NCBI GenBank assembly: GCA_039961635.1
Contig: JABRWB010000041.1
Location: 65,448-129,447, forward strand
Direction of reading: 5' to 3'
Source: a bacterium
GTDB taxonomy: Bacteria; 4484-113; JAGGVC01
DNA length: 64,000 nucleotides
Made by a program: the position numbers and the translations under genes. Shown here one piece after another: positions 31,772 to 59,100 of the stretch. The notes beneath the pieces are model-generated. The model was given only the letters and a program-made list of their open reading frames with translations, ran no database searches and was not told the origin of the DNA. Numbering within the stretch: position 1 is the stretch's first letter; each line of letters opens with the position of its first letter.

Positions 31772-31788
31772 TATAATCTCAAGTCATG
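31772..31788 (+). promoter_or_regulatory. TATAAT -10 eight bases before the rseP ATG (near-leaderless)
   Basis: TATAAT at 31772-31777, eight bases, then ATG at 31786. It mirrors the yggT promoter 63 bases away on the other strand, with the same spacing. Confidence 0.5.
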
Positions 31789-33138
31789 CTTGTCGCGGCG
31801 TTTTGGGTTGTTCTTGTCTTCGCGGTTATCGTGATTGTCCACGAATTCGGCCACTTCTTGCTCGCGCGCGTTTTCGACATCGAGGTCACCGAGTTTTGCA
31901 TCGGCATCGGACCCAAGTTGTGGGGATTCAAGCATCGTGGAACATATTACGGAATCTGTCTGCTTCCGATTGGAGGCTTCGTCAAAGTGGCCGGAATGGA
32001 GCCTGGAGAGCCTCAATCCGACCGCAGCTTCAATTCGCAGCCGGTTTCGCGAAGAATTGCGGTTATCGCCGCGGGCCCTGTTTTCAACTTCATCCTCGCG
32101 GTACTGCTCGTCTTTGCGCTTGGCTTCTTTGGCTACCCCAAAAACAAGGTGCGCGTCGGCGCGATTTTCCCCGGCGGTCCCGCGGAGGCGGCCGGTTTTG
32201 AGGTTTTTGATGTAATCGAATCGGTGGACAGCAAACCGGTTGAAAGTGTGCTTGCATTCCAACGCTCGGTCCGCAACGCGGGTGGGCGAACTCTTGAATT
32301 CGAGGTGGAACGCGATGGCAAACTTCTCCGCCTTTCGGCCGCTCCGACCGTAATTCCCGAATACAACAACGAAATCCCAAGCCTCGGTGTTGCCCTTGGA
32401 AAATACCCGGAATTCAAAAGCAAAATTTCCAGCATCATTCCAGGTTCCCCCGCGTTTAAAGCACAACTGCAGGTTGGGGATGTAATCACTTCCGTCAATT
32501 CTAATTCTGCAAGGGATGGCTGGGAAGTCTATGAATTTATCGAATTGGAGACGCGCGCAGGCCAGCCGGTGCGCCCGGCTCAACAGGAGACGGGGAACCC
32601 ACCCGTATTCAAACCGGTAGTGTTGGGCGTCGTGCGCGACAACGAACTGCTGCAAATCACGATACAACCGGAGTCGAACGCGCAGGTCGGAGCAAATGTG
32701 GCGTATACAGGAATGGTGTTCGAACCGGTGCTTGTCAAACTGCCATTTGCCGAGGCGATGGAGACAACATTCAATTATCTCAGGGACATTGTGGAAGGCA
32801 TGATCCAAGGAATTTGGACGCTTTTCCATGCTCCGACACAGAATCTCGTTGGCCCGCTCGGCATAACGAACCTGATTGCGCAGTCCGCCAAAAGCGGGCC
32901 GTACCAGCTGATGCTCATCGCCATTCTTCTAAACGTCAATCTGGGCTTGATTAACCTTTTCCCGATTCCGGCGCTTGACGGCGGAAGGCTCGTCTTCCTG
33001 CTGTTGGAAGGTTTGTTCCGAGTCCGCATAAATGAGCACAAGGAAGCGCTTGTGCATCTCGTCGGCTTCATCATGCTGATTGGCCTGATTATCGTGATTA
33101 CATTCAAAGAGGTTCTGGGCCTCTTGCCGGTCGGATGA
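31786..33138 (+). CDS. rseP: RIP metalloprotease RseP (site-2 protease)
   Basis: A 450-residue intramembrane zinc protease. HEFGH in VIVHEFGHFLLAR is the active site in the first helix; the third ligand is in NLFPIPALDGG near the C-terminus. Two PDZ-like domains lie between (about 115-195 and 205-300). RseP enzymes cut membrane anti-sigma factors after a first cut, releasing the sigma factor. That makes it a candidate partner of the membrane anti-sigma-like fusion at 56-61.6 kb. The stop overlaps an alternative ATG of the next gene. Confidence 0.93.
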   Translation: MLVAAFWVVLVFAVIVIVHEFGHFLLARVFDIEVTEFCIGIGPKLWGFKHRGTYYGICLLPIGGFVKVAGMEPGEPQSDRSFNSQPVSRRIAVIAAGPVFNFILAVLLVFALGFFGYPKNKVRVGAIFPGGPAEAAGFEVFDVIESVDSKPVESVLAFQRSVRNAGGRTLEFEVERDGKLLRLSAAPTVIPEYNNEIPSLGVALGKYPEFKSKISSIIPGSPAFKAQLQVGDVITSVNSNSARDGWEVYEFIELETRAGQPVRPAQQETGNPPVFKPVVLGVVRDNELLQITIQPESNAQVGANVAYTGMVFEPVLVKLPFAEAMETTFNYLRDIVEGMIQGIWTLFHAPTQNLVGPLGITNLIAQSAKSGPYQLMLIAILLNVNLGLINLFPIPALDGGRLVFLLLEGLFRVRINEHKEALVHLVGFIMLIGLIIVITFKEVLGLLPVG

Positions 33139-51202: not shown

Positions 51203-52162
51203 CTATTTAATTATCCGCGAAAGCTCGTAAAGAGATGGATCTATCGCTCGTTTATCCCCTTCCAACCTTGATAACGGAAACCTCCTAATCACGTTTCCGG
51301 ATAGTCCGACATAAATTCCGTCTTCACCTTCTTCCGCCGCGACGACCGCCTCGTATCCAAGTCTGCTTGCAAGTACGCGATCGAATGCGGTGGGTGAGCC
51401 GCCGCGCTGCACATGGCCCAAAACGGTTACGCGCATGTCCACAGGAACCTTTAAATGCTTATCCAACTCGTTTTTGACGTCTCTGCCCCGCGCGAATCCT
51501 TCGGCCACTACTATGATCACGTACGTCCCCCAGTTTTCCAGCCTGTGTTCCACTTCGCGCGCAATCACGTCGTAGTCTACAGGCATTTCGGGGATCAGAA
51601 TGATGTCGGCTCCGCCGGCTATCCCGCTGGACAGCGCCAACCAGCCCGAGCCGCGCCCCATCGTTTCCACTATAAACGCCCTGTGGTGGCTCGCCGCGGT
51701 GTCACGCAGCCTTGTAAGCGAATCCACAACCGTGTTGCACGCGGTGTCGAATCCAATTGTCGTATCCAATTCCGGCACATCGTTGTCGATTGTTTTCGGG
51801 ATGCCAATCAGCCTGACTCCCAGCCGCGAAAGCGCGAGCGCTCCCTTGAGACTGCCGTCCCCGCCAATAACGATTAGGCAATCCAATTCCCAGGCTTTTA
51901 TAGATTCGTAAGCTTTTTGACGGCCTTCTTCCGTTTCAAATTCCTCGCTGCGCGCGCTGCCCAGCACCGTTCCGCCACGCTGCAAGATATCCGCAACGTC
52001 AAGGTAAGACACCACCTTTGCGTCACCGTCGATGAGGCCCTTATAGCCCCATTTGAACGCGACAAGCTTATGACCTTTGGACAATCCAACGCGCGCAACA
52101 GAACGATACGCAGCGTTCATGCCAGGGCAATCGCCGCCGCTCGTAAGAACTCCGATGTTCAT
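51203..52162 (-). CDS. pfkA: 6-phosphofructokinase, GGDG type
   Basis: A 319-residue phosphofructokinase. It begins MNIGVLTSGGDCPGMNAAYRS; GGDGS (about 98-102) carries the Gly expected for ATP use, but the substrate loop reads PKTIDND, with Lys as in PPi enzymes rather than Gly. GRGSGWLAL and GHVQRGGSPTAFDR are also present. It phosphorylates fructose 6-phosphate in glycolysis. GGGAGGGG precedes the ATG. It is divergent from a second PFK, and shares a symmetrical promoter region with it. Confidence 0.93.
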   Translation of the reverse strand: MNIGVLTSGGDCPGMNAAYRSVARVGLSKGHKLVAFKWGYKGLIDGDAKVVSYLDVADILQRGGTVLGSARSEEFETEEGRQKAYESIKAWELDCLIVIGGDGSLKGALALSRLGVRLIGIPKTIDNDVPELDTTIGFDTACNTVVDSLTRLRDTAASHHRAFIVETMGRGSGWLALSSGIAGGADIILIPEMPVDYDVIAREVEHRLENWGTYVIIVVAEGFARGRDVKNELDKHLKVPVDMRVTVLGHVQRGGSPTAFDRVLASRLGYEAVVAAEEGEDGIYVGLSGNVIRRFPLSRLEGDKRAIDPSLYELSRIIK

Positions 52163-52188
52163 CTGCCCCTCCCTGAGGCTAAAAACTG

Positions 52189-52222
52189 ATTTTAGCACCG
52201 CCTGAATTCAATCTGCTAAAAT
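52189..52222. promoter_or_regulatory. Mirror-image promoters between the two phosphofructokinase genes
   Basis: TGCTAAAAT reads rightward at 52214-52222 and leftward at 52189-52197 (seen as ATTTTAGCA). Each is an extended -10 (TGC plus TAAAAT). Together they form a 9-bp inverted repeat with a 16-base spacer and drive the two pfk genes apart. The repeat could also bind a regulator. Confidence 0.55.
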
Positions 52223-52283
52223 TCGCCGCTTTTTGCATGTGCCTAGGTTAATGAAGGGTTCGGCAAAGGTAAAAGGAGTTGTT

Positions 52284-53339
52284 ATGAGATTCGGTGTGCT
52301 AACGGGAGGCGGCGATTCCCCGGCAATAAACGCCGCAACCAGGGCGATCACTTTGTCCGCTTTAGAGGAAGGGCACGATGTCGTCGGCATCCGGGACGGC
52401 TGGCGGGGCGCGGTCGAGAACAAAACCTTCAAGCTTACTTCAACCGCCGTTTCAGGAATAATAAACTTGAGCGGGACGATTCTGGGCACTTCGCGCACGA
52501 ATCCATTCAAGATGGACAAAGGGCCGGACAAAGTTTTGGCAACATTCAAAAAGCACGGAATCGATTACTTGATCGCAATCGGCGGAGACGACACGCTGGG
52601 CGTCGCCCACAAGCTTGCAAAACACGGGGTAAAGGCCATCGGTATCCCGCAAACAATTGACAACGATTTAGGCGAAACCGATTACGCGATCGGATTCGAC
52701 ACCTCGCTTAATTTCGTGATGGATGCGCTGGACAGGCTGCGCAGCACGGCCGCCAGCCACAGCAGGATTATTGTCGCGGAGGTTATGGGACGCGACGCGG
52801 GATGGCTTGCTCTGCTCGGCGGCCTTGCCGGCGGCGCGGACATCATTCTGATCCCGGAGCGTCCCTTCAACATGGATCGCGTTTGCGCGTCGCTTAGGGA
52901 GGCGCACAAGAAAGGCAAGAGGTTTGCTATTGTTGCTGTTGCGGAAGGCGCGTTACCCGAAGGCGGCCATGATCAGGTATCCAAGACCGCGGAAATCGAT
53001 GCATTCGGTCACATAATTTTGGGTGGCATCGGCGAATGGGTTGCCGGCGAAATTAAGAAGCGCACGGAATACGAAGTGCGAAGCATCGTTCTCGGCCATA
53101 TGCAGCGCGGCGGCACCCCAACCGCATTCGACCGAAATTTGGCTACCCGTTACGGTGCAGCCGCGGTAATCGGCTGTCTTGAAGGCAATACAGACACGAT
53201 GGTTGCCCTGAAAGGACACAAGATTGTCTATGTACCCCTCGAAAAGGCGCTCAGGAAAAACCGAGTTGTGGACATAAAAACTCTGCGCGAGACCGAGTTT
53301 TTCCTGCGCGTATCAATGCGCGACCATCTGGCCTTTTAG
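52284..53339 (+). CDS. Phosphofructokinase, GGDD (PPi-like) type
   Basis: A 351-residue phosphofructokinase. It begins MRFGVLTGGGDSPAINAATR; GGDDT is the Asp signature of diphosphate-dependent enzymes, but the next loop reads PQTIDND, with Gln where PPi enzymes have Lys and ATP enzymes Gly. GRDAGWLAL and GHMQRGGTPTAFDR follow. It may use PPi, making a reversible step, but donor choice needs assay. AAAGGAG lies seven bases before the ATG. It is convergent with gapA, 38 bases apart. Confidence 0.9.
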   Translation: MRFGVLTGGGDSPAINAATRAITLSALEEGHDVVGIRDGWRGAVENKTFKLTSTAVSGIINLSGTILGTSRTNPFKMDKGPDKVLATFKKHGIDYLIAIGGDDTLGVAHKLAKHGVKAIGIPQTIDNDLGETDYAIGFDTSLNFVMDALDRLRSTAASHSRIIVAEVMGRDAGWLALLGGLAGGADIILIPERPFNMDRVCASLREAHKKGKRFAIVAVAEGALPEGGHDQVSKTAEIDAFGHIILGGIGEWVAGEIKKRTEYEVRSIVLGHMQRGGTPTAFDRNLATRYGAAAVIGCLEGNTDTMVALKGHKIVYVPLEKALRKNRVVDIKTLRETEFFLRVSMRDHLAF

Positions 53340-53377
53340 TATTGACGCCGGCTGCATTCACGTTTTCGGCAGATGGT

Positions 53378-54385
53378 TTAGAACTTGGAGCCCATGAATT
53401 TCATCAAATCAACGCAACGCGCCGAGTAACCCCACTCGTTGTCGTACCACGACAACACTTTGACGAATCGCGGGCCCGAAAATTTCGTATACTTCGGATC
53501 GAAGATGGACGAATGCGGATCCTGCTTGAAGTCCATCGAAACGCACTCGTCCTCGCAATAGGCCAGTATTCCCTTCAACTCGCCTTCCGAGGCCGCCTTA
53601 ACCGCGGCGTTAACCGCTTTGGAATCCGAATCCTTGCCAAGGATGGCGGTGAAGTCAACCAAGCTAACCGTTGGCGTGGGCACTCGCACGGCGAAACCGT
53701 CTATCTTGCCGGCCAAATGAGGCAGAACCAGTCCTATGGCTGCCGCGGCACCGGTCTTTGTCGGAATCATGTTCAATGCAGCAGCCCTTGCGCGCCGCCA
53801 GTCCTTGTGCGGAGCATCAAGAATGACCTGATCGTTCGTGTAGCTGTGAATCGTCGTCATCAACCCGCATTCGACGCCGAAATTGTCGTCCAGAACTTTG
53901 ACAACAGGCGCAAGGCAGTTCGTAGTGCAACTTGCATTCGAAATGATTTTGTGCTTGGCGGGATCGAAATTCGAATGGTTGACTCCCATCAGGAATGTCT
54001 CGTCAACATTCGTCCCGGGCGCGCTAATCACGACGAACTTAGCCCCGGCATCGATGTGTTTTCTTGCAGTTTCCCCGTCCGTGAACCGTCCGGTAGATTC
54101 AAGAACGATGTCCACGTCGTACTTTGCCCACGGCAAAGCTGCCGGATCTTTTTCTTTAAACAAATGCACGGTGTAGCCGTTCGGGAACTCAAAAGTATCC
54201 TGCCCGACTTTAAACTGCCTGGTGAACCGGCCGTAATTCGAGTCGTACTTGAGCAAGTGCGCAAGCAAATCCTCGTCCACGAGGTCGTTGATGCCGACTA
54301 CCTCGATTTCCGGCTCGTCCAGCGCAAGATGAAACACTTGTCTGCCGATACGGCCGAATCCGTTTATGCCAACCTTGATCGCCAT
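53378..54385 (-). CDS. gapA: Glyceraldehyde-3-phosphate dehydrogenase, type I
   Basis: A 335-residue GAPDH. The NAD-binding start is KVGINGFGRIGRQVF; the catalytic cysteine is in SNASCTTNCLAP; the conserved TKTGAAAAIG, AVRVPTPTVSLVD and SWYDNEWGYSAR blocks are all present. It converts glyceraldehyde 3-phosphate to 1,3-bisphosphoglycerate. GGAGGGG precedes the ATG. It groups with two phosphofructokinase genes in a small glycolysis cluster. Confidence 0.97.
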   Translation of the reverse strand: MAIKVGINGFGRIGRQVFHLALDEPEIEVVGINDLVDEDLLAHLLKYDSNYGRFTRQFKVGQDTFEFPNGYTVHLFKEKDPAALPWAKYDVDIVLESTGRFTDGETARKHIDAGAKFVVISAPGTNVDETFLMGVNHSNFDPAKHKIISNASCTTNCLAPVVKVLDDNFGVECGLMTTIHSYTNDQVILDAPHKDWRRARAAALNMIPTKTGAAAAIGLVLPHLAGKIDGFAVRVPTPTVSLVDFTAILGKDSDSKAVNAAVKAASEGELKGILAYCEDECVSMDFKQDPHSSIFDPKYTKFSGPRFVKVLSWYDNEWGYSARCVDLMKFMGSKF

Positions 54386-56188: not shown

Positions 56189-59100
56189 CTATGTCACCGA
56201 TATCCTTAAAGGAGGTGCGGCCGCAGCGCTTTCGGGATTGGCAATTTCGTAAACATTGCTCTGCGGTACTTCAGCCGATAATGGATACAGCGCTCTCATC
56301 CTAAACCGCACTACCACACGATCGCCCCGCAAGAGCCCAAAATGATAAAGCCTTAAAAAGCGCCCGGTCTCCTCCCACCGAGCGATTATTCCTGAATTCA
56401 CAAGCGCGTCCAAGTCGGAGGCCAAAGGCTTGAAGCCGGGCGCGATACCCACCTGCATCACGATTGCACCCGACGAACCCGCCGCCAAATACTTTGCTTC
56501 AGCCTCGACGCGCAATGTATCTTTGACTGCCAGCTCGGTTCTGTCGTAACTGACCGAAAACTCGAACGGCTTGGCGACAGGGCTTTCACGCACCTCATTC
56601 CATGGCAGGTTGTAACGCACATCCAGTTGGTAAAACAGCCGGCCGAAATTGAAACCGGCAAGTGAAAAGGTAGTGGCACCTTTTCCGTTTAGCGCCTGGC
56701 TAAGGTCTATGAACTTTGCAACTCCGTTTGATTCTTTGGAAAATATCGCTTCCGCTATTTCAGTCACGCCGGATTTTAAAATTGCCGTTCCGTCCCCTTT
56801 GTAGCTTAGGAAATCCTCTCCAGCAACCAAAGCTTTCAAGGCCAATGCTGTTGCGCGTGCACTTCCCCAAGTTCCATCTTGTCCCTTTTGAGTTGCTAGC
56901 CATTCAATCGCACTCGCGGCATCGCCCGAACCGGTGTTACCGGATAGCAACGCCAGCACTGCCAGCGACGTACATTCGACATTAGCCGTTTTTCCTGTTG
57001 CAAATGTCAAAGTCGGGCCTGGAGTTTCCCAATAAAGTTTCTTGCGCTCATCGAGTTTCGCCATACCCTTCAGCCTGCCGCACAGAAAATCGATCTCGTC
57101 TTTATTTCCGCCCAAGGCTGAAAGTGCGTTTATTGCAACGGCAAGGGCATAAGGATTGTCGGTCTTTTTGGCGTCGGCCTTCAACTGGTTAACGGCATTT
57201 AACATTTCGCCGCGTTCCACGCCAGAAGCAGCCAGAGCCCACAAAACATAGGAATTGACCGCCAGCTCCATTCCTGGAACTGAATGCATTGCGTCATAGC
57301 GGCCCCCGGGTAACCTGAACAATCCTGAACCCGGCTCCGCTTGGGAACGAAGCCATCGCTGCGTCCGTTTCACAAGATTTGCATCTACAAAACCCACTTT
57401 TTCAATTTCAAGAAGATCGAGCAGCCCGAAAGAGGTGACCGTCAAATCCGCTTGGTCTTCCCCATAGAAGGAAAAACCTCCGCCTGAAGTTTCGAACGCC
57501 AGAATGCTTTGATATCCGATACTTAGATTTTCGCGCGCCCTTGATTCGACTTCGGGGGAAATCCGCCCGGCATTTTTAAGATAACTTAAAACAAGAACGC
57601 TGGGATAATATGCCGCCGAGGTTTCGATAAATCCTCCTTGGCCTGGCTGTTGCGCACTTTCGAAGCTTTCGGAAATGTGGCTTCCAGCGTCCTGATAGAG
57701 TTTCAACACGGCATTTACCGATCCGGCTATTGCCCCTTCCGGCACCTGCACCGTGAAATTGGACTCCTTATCTGTAAATATACCATTTGTAATCTTTACA
57801 ACTTCCTTGCCGCCTGGAACCACCCTGACCGGGTATTCGATTGCGTCCGTACGCCCGCCTCCGGAATTGGCCGTGGCGCTTAATGCGAAATCGCCCACGC
57901 GCAACGCCTTAATTCGAAACTCGACATATACGGCGGATCCATTCGGTGCGGTAATTGCTGCCGAAGGGGAACCCGAAAGCGAAAACCAGTCCGCAGGCTG
58001 TAAAGATACGGACGCCGATTGATTTGCCCCGGTGAAATTGTAGACAGCAATTGGAACCGTAATTTCATCGCCTAAAGTCATTTCCGCCGGAATAAGCGCG
58101 TCAATAAAGAATCCGGTCTTGACAGGCAACATAATCTTGCTTGTGGCAATGTTGCCCCCGGCATCGCTTGCTATAGCCGAAAATTCCCACGTTGTCAGGC
58201 TGTCGGCCATCTCAAAGGTGCAGTCGGCCTGACCTGAATCATCCACTACCAGTTCGGGAATCCACACAAGCGTCTCCGGAAAATGCTTCCTTATGCGCGC
58301 AGGCTCGGATTTATGCTGCAAGGAGGCCGAAGCTGACGTTGCCGCCTTCTCGAACAGGGCTTCCCTGGGGGTGCCGCCCAAATCGCCGCCCGTTGCAACG
58401 GATTCAGTGGAAAAGGATTTTGCACCTTCAGGGAGTCCGGGTACTCCAAAAGAAAAAACTACAAGTCCCGCGATTCCGGCAGCCAAAATCGTTGTGGTTA
58501 CTCTCAGCGGTTGCAGGCGGGACGCGGTGACAGGATTTTCGATATTGTTGCAAAGAAACGCTGCTGAAAGCACGAAGGGATTTGCATACAATAGCGCCAA
58601 AATCAATCCTTGGACAGGAATTGAAATTTCGCCTATTCCAACAAGCACGAACCATGCCGCGCTAACCGGATACGCCGCCGCCAGCAGCATAGCTTTAACT
58701 CGAAACAGGTCGATACGTTCTCCGATCAATTTTGCCGATATCACTGAAAACGCCAAACCAGCGGCGGAAATCGCGCACACTGCCATCCACCCGACGTATG
58801 CAAATGGCGGCAGCATCGAGACCATCCAAGGCGCAACCGACAGCCAAGCCAGCAACCGGTATTGCTTCCAGGCTTTTGGCGACACTACCGCCGCGCTAAA
58901 GCTGCCGTACTGAGCAACCGTGATTACGATCACTGCCAAGGAAAGTACCAACAAAATCGCAGGAAAGCCGATTTGCATCGAGCGCCTGGTTCTTTCCTTC
59001 AGCAGGTTGATTTGCTTCGATTCGATTTCCGACGAGCTTCTGGAGAGCTGATACCAGCTGCGTTCTTCCGGTGCAGCACGCGACGCAAGCGATCTACCGA

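Follow-up and report, generated by a model that had tools for sequence, protein, structure and literature searches.

The locus described here raises the question of why a bacterial A2M protein carries a block of membrane helices in the middle of its chain, and what such a protein does at the membrane. The locus lies in a 64,000-nucleotide stretch of DNA (the window). The unit of interest is a sigma factor gene with a fused anti-sigma-like/A2M gene, and the membrane block forms the unusual centre of the fusion. The product of the fused gene comprises 1817 residues from the likely start codon, with ggaggg as a ribosome-binding-like stretch; the residue numbers of the fused protein are counted from an upstream TTG. 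From the N terminus, the chain consists of an anti-sigma-like domain, an anchor helix, the A2M ring, six helices in MG6, the plug, MG6-beta, MG7, CUB, TED and MG8. The Pfam matches of MG2 (6.3e-24, residues 324-409), BRD (A2M_BRD, 7e-14, residues 640-788), A2M and TED follow one another in order, each above its curated cut-off, as does A2M_recep, placing the protein in the A2M family. The gene and the A2M part of its product are arranged as follows.

56189..61642 (-): fused anti-sigma-like/A2M gene, likely ATG start at 61642, open reading frame extending to TTG 61681
59318..60931 (-): macroglobulin domains MG1 to MG6-alpha, residues 251-788; MG borders other than those of MG2 and A2M_BRD are approximate
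59036..59317 (-): LNK-like stretch and pre-block linker, residues 789-882, from the ortholog alignment and a by-eye comparison with relatives
58433..59035 (-): six-helix membrane block, helix 1 with a long amphipathic extension, residues 883-1083, from hydropathy, AlphaFold2 and the ortholog
58307..58432 (-): variable linker from the block to the plug, residues 1084-1125, the best bait candidate
58277..58291 (-): plug motif R1131-P1135 (RKHFP, then ET), aligned to VRQYFPET of human A2ML1 7q1y
58124..58306 (-): MG6-beta, residues 1126-1186, from the A2M match (PF00207, 3.1e-13, residues 1137-1227) and the alignment to A2ML1
56807..57649 (-): thioester domain (TED), residues 1345-1625, TED_complement 3.2e-30
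56192..56476 (-): C-terminal MG8/receptor-binding-like domain, residues 1736-1830, A2M_recep 2.4e-4, 22.1 bits against a cut-off of 21.7

The original prediction placed about six transmembrane helices at 58430-58980, between the macroglobulin region (MG5/6) and the A2M/TED part, and both the coordinates and the position proved correct. Six hydrophobic helices occupy 58433-58972 (residues 904-1083) in one reading frame, between the end of the BRD match at 788 and the start of the A2M match at 1137, and the ortholog in a second genome has likewise six. The helices and their mean Kyte-Doolittle values are given below.

58916..58972 (-): block helix 1, residues 904-922, 2.78
58799..58855 (-): block helix 2, residues 943-961, 1.44 (2.14 in the ortholog)
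58739..58795 (-): block helix 3, residues 963-981, 2.02
58634..58690 (-): block helix 4, residues 998-1016, 1.96
58550..58606 (-): block helix 5, residues 1026-1044, 2.08
58433..58489 (-): block helix 6, residues 1065-1083, 2.11

Five of the six 19-residue segments in the window protein reach a mean value of at least 1.6, and all six do so in the ortholog, each at 1.99 or higher. Counted per 190-residue stretch, peaks of at least 1.6 number five in the window protein and six in the ortholog, compared with at most four (mean 1.5) in 300 whole-protein shuffles. AlphaFold2 prediction of the block alone from a two-row alignment showed six helices at moderate confidence (mean pLDDT 65, pTM 0.54), and a soluble arrangement of the helices was not seen. 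Prediction of residues 632-1236, covering MG6 and the block, from a two-row alignment gave a pLDDT of 41 and no usable model of the ring or of MG6. The two blocks share 67 of 199 residues, including the charged residues K984, E988, R994 and K996.

These shared charges, and the lack of a match between the six helices and any known family, would suit a block that is a channel, transporter or enzyme domain for which the A2M part serves as scaffold or gate. This reading is improbable. The intramembrane proteases of the rhomboid, CPBP, site-2 and presenilin types are recognised by a conserved catalytic His or Asp or by HExxH. Alignment of the two blocks shows no conserved His or Asp, and the block of the window protein contains no His at all. 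Searches of Pfam, NCBIfam and PDB sequences found no relatives of the block, and a block profile run against 385 genomes matched only the window genome (G000) and that of the ortholog (G001), being absent from the other 383. The rhomboid- or CPBP-like unit that had been suggested is thereby disfavoured, and the search for a hidden protease motif in the block returned no known intramembrane protease motif. A known fold for the block was also sought. With the block model, Foldseek returned nothing at E <= 0.001 among 169 rows at E <= 10 (best E 0.29), and the best VIA match (a chain of cytochrome bo3, Z 9.9) scores as helical bundles are said to score; both comparisons yielded generic helical bundles only. 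Since two sequences are too few for a good model, the block may still be related to a known fold.

The ortholog (L002/L008, one and the same contig, record JAGGVC010000009.1) is 40% identical to the window protein from end to end and has no internal stop. It belongs to another genus of the same family, and these two genomes are the only ones with the fused protein among the ten of their phylum in the collection. The gene order GAF-GGDEF, small two-helix gene, sigma, A2M and nucleotidyltransferase is common to both loci; the neighbours in G001 were identified by eye, by resemblance to those in the window, and the GAF-GGDEF frame there is cut off where the retrieved stretch ends. Because no stop interrupts the frame and an ortholog of another genus keeps the same block and neighbours, a frameshift or a chimera does not explain the protein. 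An assembly or annotation artefact is hardly credible on the same evidence, for all that both genomes are draft assemblies (G000 in 100 contigs, L008 a MAG). The outcomes that would speak against the block, namely soluble helices or an explanation by frameshift or gene fusion, were therefore not observed, and the block was found in a homolog. A peptide-pattern scan of genome contigs with two poor patterns returned only L008. Elsewhere in the window, at 51203-54385, two presumably phosphofructokinase-like genes adjoin each other on opposite strands beside a presumably glyceraldehyde-3-phosphate dehydrogenase-like gene.

By alignment, the six helices sit inside MG6, between MG6-alpha and the plug, which is the slot of the bait or of the anaphylatoxin. 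This placement follows from the alignment of the plug to A2ML1 together with the account of the MG6 insert in PMC9156758. In that account, the LNK and the bait of A2ML1 form a single continuous insert in MG6, the anaphylatoxin holds this place in complement, and Arg730-Pro734, including Tyr732 and Phe733, plug the channel and must exit when the bait is cut (PMC9156758). An RxYFPET-type plug is present after the slot in both bacterial proteins (IRKHFPET in the window protein, VRKHFPET in the ortholog), with the Tyr replaced by His, and a HMMER profile of the two proteins puts VRKHFPET on VRQYFPET of human A2ML1 (7q1y). The stretch left between the block and the plug is the variable linker of 42 residues. 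Among 16 segments compared, it is the least identical to the ortholog (10/39, 15 gap columns), and the plug with MG6-beta is identical at 34 of 61 positions. A variable linker beside a conserved plug is the pattern expected of a bait, which makes the linker a candidate and is not proof.

Since MG6 is built from the chain on both sides of the slot and its two halves must meet, an even number of spans is expected. With loops 1-2, 3-4 and 5-6 inside, Lys and Arg number 9 inside and 6 outside in the window protein, and 10 and 7 in the ortholog. The protein would accordingly have its N terminus inside, the ring outside, six spans and the TED outside. The original prediction of an even number of helices with both halves extracytoplasmic thus finds support in the six spans, the split MG6 and the charge counts, with one contrary feature: five Lys and Arg in the window protein, and four in the ortholog, fall in the 15-residue stretch ahead of helix 1, on what would be the outer side. 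This stretch and the weak hydrophobicity of helix 2 in the window protein would suit a topology in which one segment, such as helix 2, does not span, the TED and MG8 come to lie in the cytoplasm and the protein acts in some other way. Such a topology is very improbable, as helix 2 of the ortholog is clearly hydrophobic and both halves of MG6 are needed on one side. The thioester-bearing TED lies outside in A2M and complement, and the TED of the ortholog keeps the motif PSGCFEQ, which belongs there. In the window protein, the CxEQ thioester, a feature of type I A2Ms, is missing: at 57623..57634 (-), the residues G1350-F-I-E1353 stand where the ortholog has C-F-E-Q, both the Cys and the Gln being replaced.

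The earlier reading missed what lies at the other end of the chain, a cytoplasmic anti-sigma-like N terminus and an adjoining sigma gene.

61635..62243 (-): ECF sigma factor gene, 202 aa, Sigma70_r2 6.7e-19 and Sigma70_r4_2 5e-13; the stop codon and the A2M start codon overlap (ATGAATAG)
61367..61642 (-): cytoplasmic anti-sigma-like domain, residues 14-105, from NF052375 and hhalign
61277..61333 (-): anchor helix, residues 117-135, from hydropathy and Lys/Arg counts

Residues 14-105 match the anti-sigma family NF052375 with E 1.1e-6 and 28.8 bits, below its curated cut-off of 100, and hhalign against six A2M-linked anti-sigma-like proteins gave a probability of 90.8 (E 1.2e-6, 48 columns, 6% identity). 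The domain has no Pfam anti-sigma match and, containing no Cys, lacks the Hx3Cx2C zinc motif. This motif is described as optional among class I anti-sigma factors (PMC7406223). An ECF sigma gene that is co-encoded with and overlaps the fused gene, a class I anti-sigma feature, is found both in the window and at the ortholog. The N terminus of the anchor helix is placed inside because eight Lys and Arg lie in the 20 residues before it and one in the 15 after. Residues 14-105 are weakly anti-sigma-like in sequence, and they may act as an anti-sigma domain. Divergent from the sigma gene, a conserved small gene of 78-79 aa with two hydrophobic stretches lies on the forward strand at 62405-62641 in the window and at 7570-7809 in L002; it may belong to the sigma/A2M system. 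The intergenic regions between the two divergent genes (62244-62404 in the window, 7438-7569 in L002) share GTAAACTAT, followed by a GGTT..AATAA..CCGGC-like stretch recognised by eye, and this shared stretch upstream of the sigma gene is possibly a promoter in common.

A two-row profile of the A2M part found A2Ms at E <= 1e-40 in 22 of the 385 genomes, namely G000, G001 and 20 others. The relatives assessed are 22 loci from 19 of these 20 genomes; G137, in which the A2M lies in two pieces at contig ends (L060, L061), was left out. No A2M of the 22 loci has more than one hydrophobic helix in its slot, and none begins with an anti-sigma-like N terminus; a second sample of 386 genomes centred on G043, mostly the same genomes, yielded no further fused protein. 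The bait slot of most relatives holds a T2SSG-like motif (type II secretion pseudopilin G) of the type DPWG ... SxGPDGxxGTxDDI (L039, L051, L066 and others). Of five slot inserts scanned with PF08334, three exceed the cut-off (L039, 3.6e-6; L051, 3.5e-7; L066, 3e-4), and those of L042 (0.001) and L053 (0.041) fall below it. The string 'D[PEAFC]WG' in L057 is a chance match in MG6-beta and was not counted. The relatives (L038-L059, L064-L070) are spread over little-known phyla.

A sigma gene lies upstream on the same strand at 4 of the 22 loci (L040, L045, L046 and L047, the last two from one family), as found by phmmer with two sigma queries, a search that more divergent sigma factors could escape. 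At these loci, all in other phyla, the sigma factor, the anti-sigma-like protein and the A2M are encoded by separate genes in a row. The product of the middle ORF resembles an anti-sigma factor at its start and contains a single hydrophobic helix; among six anti-sigma-like proteins, three of which were scanned, zf-HC2 of Pfam was found in those of L045 and L065 and not in that of L046. No upstream sigma gene was found at the other 18 sampled loci, which indicates that the A2M can do without a sigma gene. The A2M occurs in 10 of the 14 genomes of the small phylum to which G152 belongs, and a sigma gene stands at eight of nine loci of this A2M type (L046, L047 and six of seven further loci); none is present in 5.3 kb at L070. 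The second A2M type of G152 and G289 (L055, L056) has no sigma gene in 1.9 and 3.2 kb. Sigma70_r2 matches number 7 in a genome of 2.7 Mb, 14 in 3.6, 28 in 5.1 and 26 in 5.5, and arithmetic from this density, for the same strand and 3.5 kb, puts chance linkage of sigma and A2M genes below 1% per locus.

A tree of 67 sigma sequences was built from 12 linked and 55 of 58 background loci (L073, L082 and L084 gave no sigma profile match), without the sigma matches of G289 or those in frames longer than about 330 aa. The window and G001 form one clade (100/99), as do the eight of the G152 phylum (100/99). The A2M-linked label requires four changes (3-4 in the bootstrap, mean 11.2 when shuffled); the supports are rough because the bootstrap had not settled. 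One old sigma linkage is not upheld by these four changes, which fit repeated pairing of sigma and A2M genes, and the tree is open to a single origin as well.

The block in the MG6 slot, the anti-sigma-like N terminus, the anchor and the overlapping sigma gene together make the A2M ectodomain look like the sensor of a sigma/anti-sigma switch. On balance, the fused protein is probably a one-chain membrane sensor that controls the ECF sigma factor. At rest, the anti-sigma-like domain would keep the sigma factor at the membrane. An outside protease, or damage, would cut the variable linker, which joins helix 6 to the RKHFP plug; the plug would then exit the channel and the ring would rearrange, as in A2M and complement. 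This change in the ring, or a further cleavage, for example by a site-2 protease, would free the sigma factor. The six helices would fasten the slot to the membrane and the anchor helix would join the ring to the anti-sigma-like domain, so that the ring change could be passed on in this way. A sensor would have no need to trap the protease covalently; the thioester is lost in the window protein and kept in the ortholog. Sequence shows the order of the domains, the position in the slot, the ortholog, the sigma overlap and its recurrence, and what is inferred is bait cleavage as the signal, release of the sigma factor, the topology and the anti-sigma function. The suggestion that a conformational change is carried across the membrane stands as a possibility and now has more weight, since the N terminus looks anti-sigma-like and adjoins a sigma gene. 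Against a sensor speak the weak anti-sigma call, helix 2 with its value of 1.44 and the Lys and Arg before helix 1. The window genome has two Peptidase_M50 matches above the cut-off, one of them in the window, and all 14 control genomes have such matches; as these proteases are near universal, their presence merely permits the final release step. The one in the window, a site-2-protease homolog at 31786-33138 (+) (Peptidase_M50, 2.9e-58), is followed by a 993-aa ORF.

The A2M could instead be the effector: it would inhibit proteases while tethered to the membrane, and the sigma factor would autoregulate its synthesis, with the anti-sigma-like part a separate module and the helices an extra anchor. 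The bacterial A2Ms described so far are presented as protease inhibitors that are themselves tethered to the inner membrane (PMC4498604, PMC5764988), the thioester PSGCFEQ is kept in the ortholog, and the A2M and anti-sigma-like genes are separate in other phyla. However, the window protein has other residues at both thioester positions, and a plain anchor needs no six helices in the bait slot of a chain that already has one anchor. The effector reading is rather unlikely, though the most serious of the alternatives. A bolder form of the sensor model is a complement-like, protease-triggered transcription switch, in which the bait has turned into a six-helix domain and attack on the surface leads to sigma release, and in which A2M/ECF pairs arose repeatedly as a general, undescribed way for bacteria to sense proteolytic attack; this form is tentative and more doubtful than the sensor model itself.

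Comparison with known systems shows that the fused protein is like animal A2M, A2ML1 and complement C3/C4/C5 in its MG ring, its split MG6 with an insert in the slot, the RxxFPET plug, the CUB/TED and the MG8, and A2ML1 is the best PDB sequence match of the A2M profile (4.5e-63). The animal slot contains the LNK and a flexible bait, or the anaphylatoxin, whereas that of the fused protein holds six membrane helices. In A2ML1, the bait from His696 to Asp726 is reported as unmodelled (PMC9156758). The animal proteins lack an anti-sigma-like domain and the window protein lacks the thioester. The A2Ms of E. coli (ECAM/YfhM) and Salmonella (SaA2M) are membrane-tethered like the fused protein; PMC4498604 describes them as periplasmic, tethered and with the bait inside an MG domain. 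They are also described with two extra N-terminal MG domains. Unlike the fused protein, they have no membrane block, and their sequence match is much weaker (8.2e-10 to 1.6e-6). The window-type profile, built on two sequences, thus matches animal A2M and complement far better than the A2Ms of E. coli and Salmonella (4.5e-63 vs. 8.2e-10). MagD, the type II A2M of Pseudomonas aeruginosa, resembles the window protein in lacking the thioester and works with MagB, a transmembrane partner; it is reported still to hold the cleaving protease non-covalently (PMC5764988). However, MagD is a separate periplasmic protein of a six-gene operon for which the sections of PMC5764988 drawn on here name no sigma factor, whereas the membrane part here is within the A2M chain.

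In ECF sigma/membrane anti-sigma pairs, RsgI, FecR and RseA combine a cytoplasmic anti-sigma domain, one helix and a large sensory ectodomain with an adjoining sigma gene. The fused protein, with a domain that is anti-sigma-like, has a similar layout, but a whole A2M with six helices inserted makes up its ectodomain. No report of an A2M with an ECF/anti-sigma pair, of an A2M ectodomain on an anti-sigma factor or of T2SSG-like inserts in the slot was found in the open-access PubMed Central literature, which is weak evidence of absence.

The affinity of the profile to animal A2M and the spread of the relatives bear on the origin of the family. Beyond the baits and anaphylatoxins for which it is known, the MG6 slot holds quite different inserts in bacteria, six membrane helices in one case and T2SSG-like domains in others. 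In the accounts of PMC4498604 and PMC5764988, the bacterial A2Ms are viewed as periplasmic inhibitors. If the sensor model is true, the conformation of an A2M would be a direct input to transcription, and sigma activity would be a simple reporter of A2M activation. The recurrent operons of sigma, anti-sigma-like and A2M genes make this idea testable beyond one uncultured lineage.
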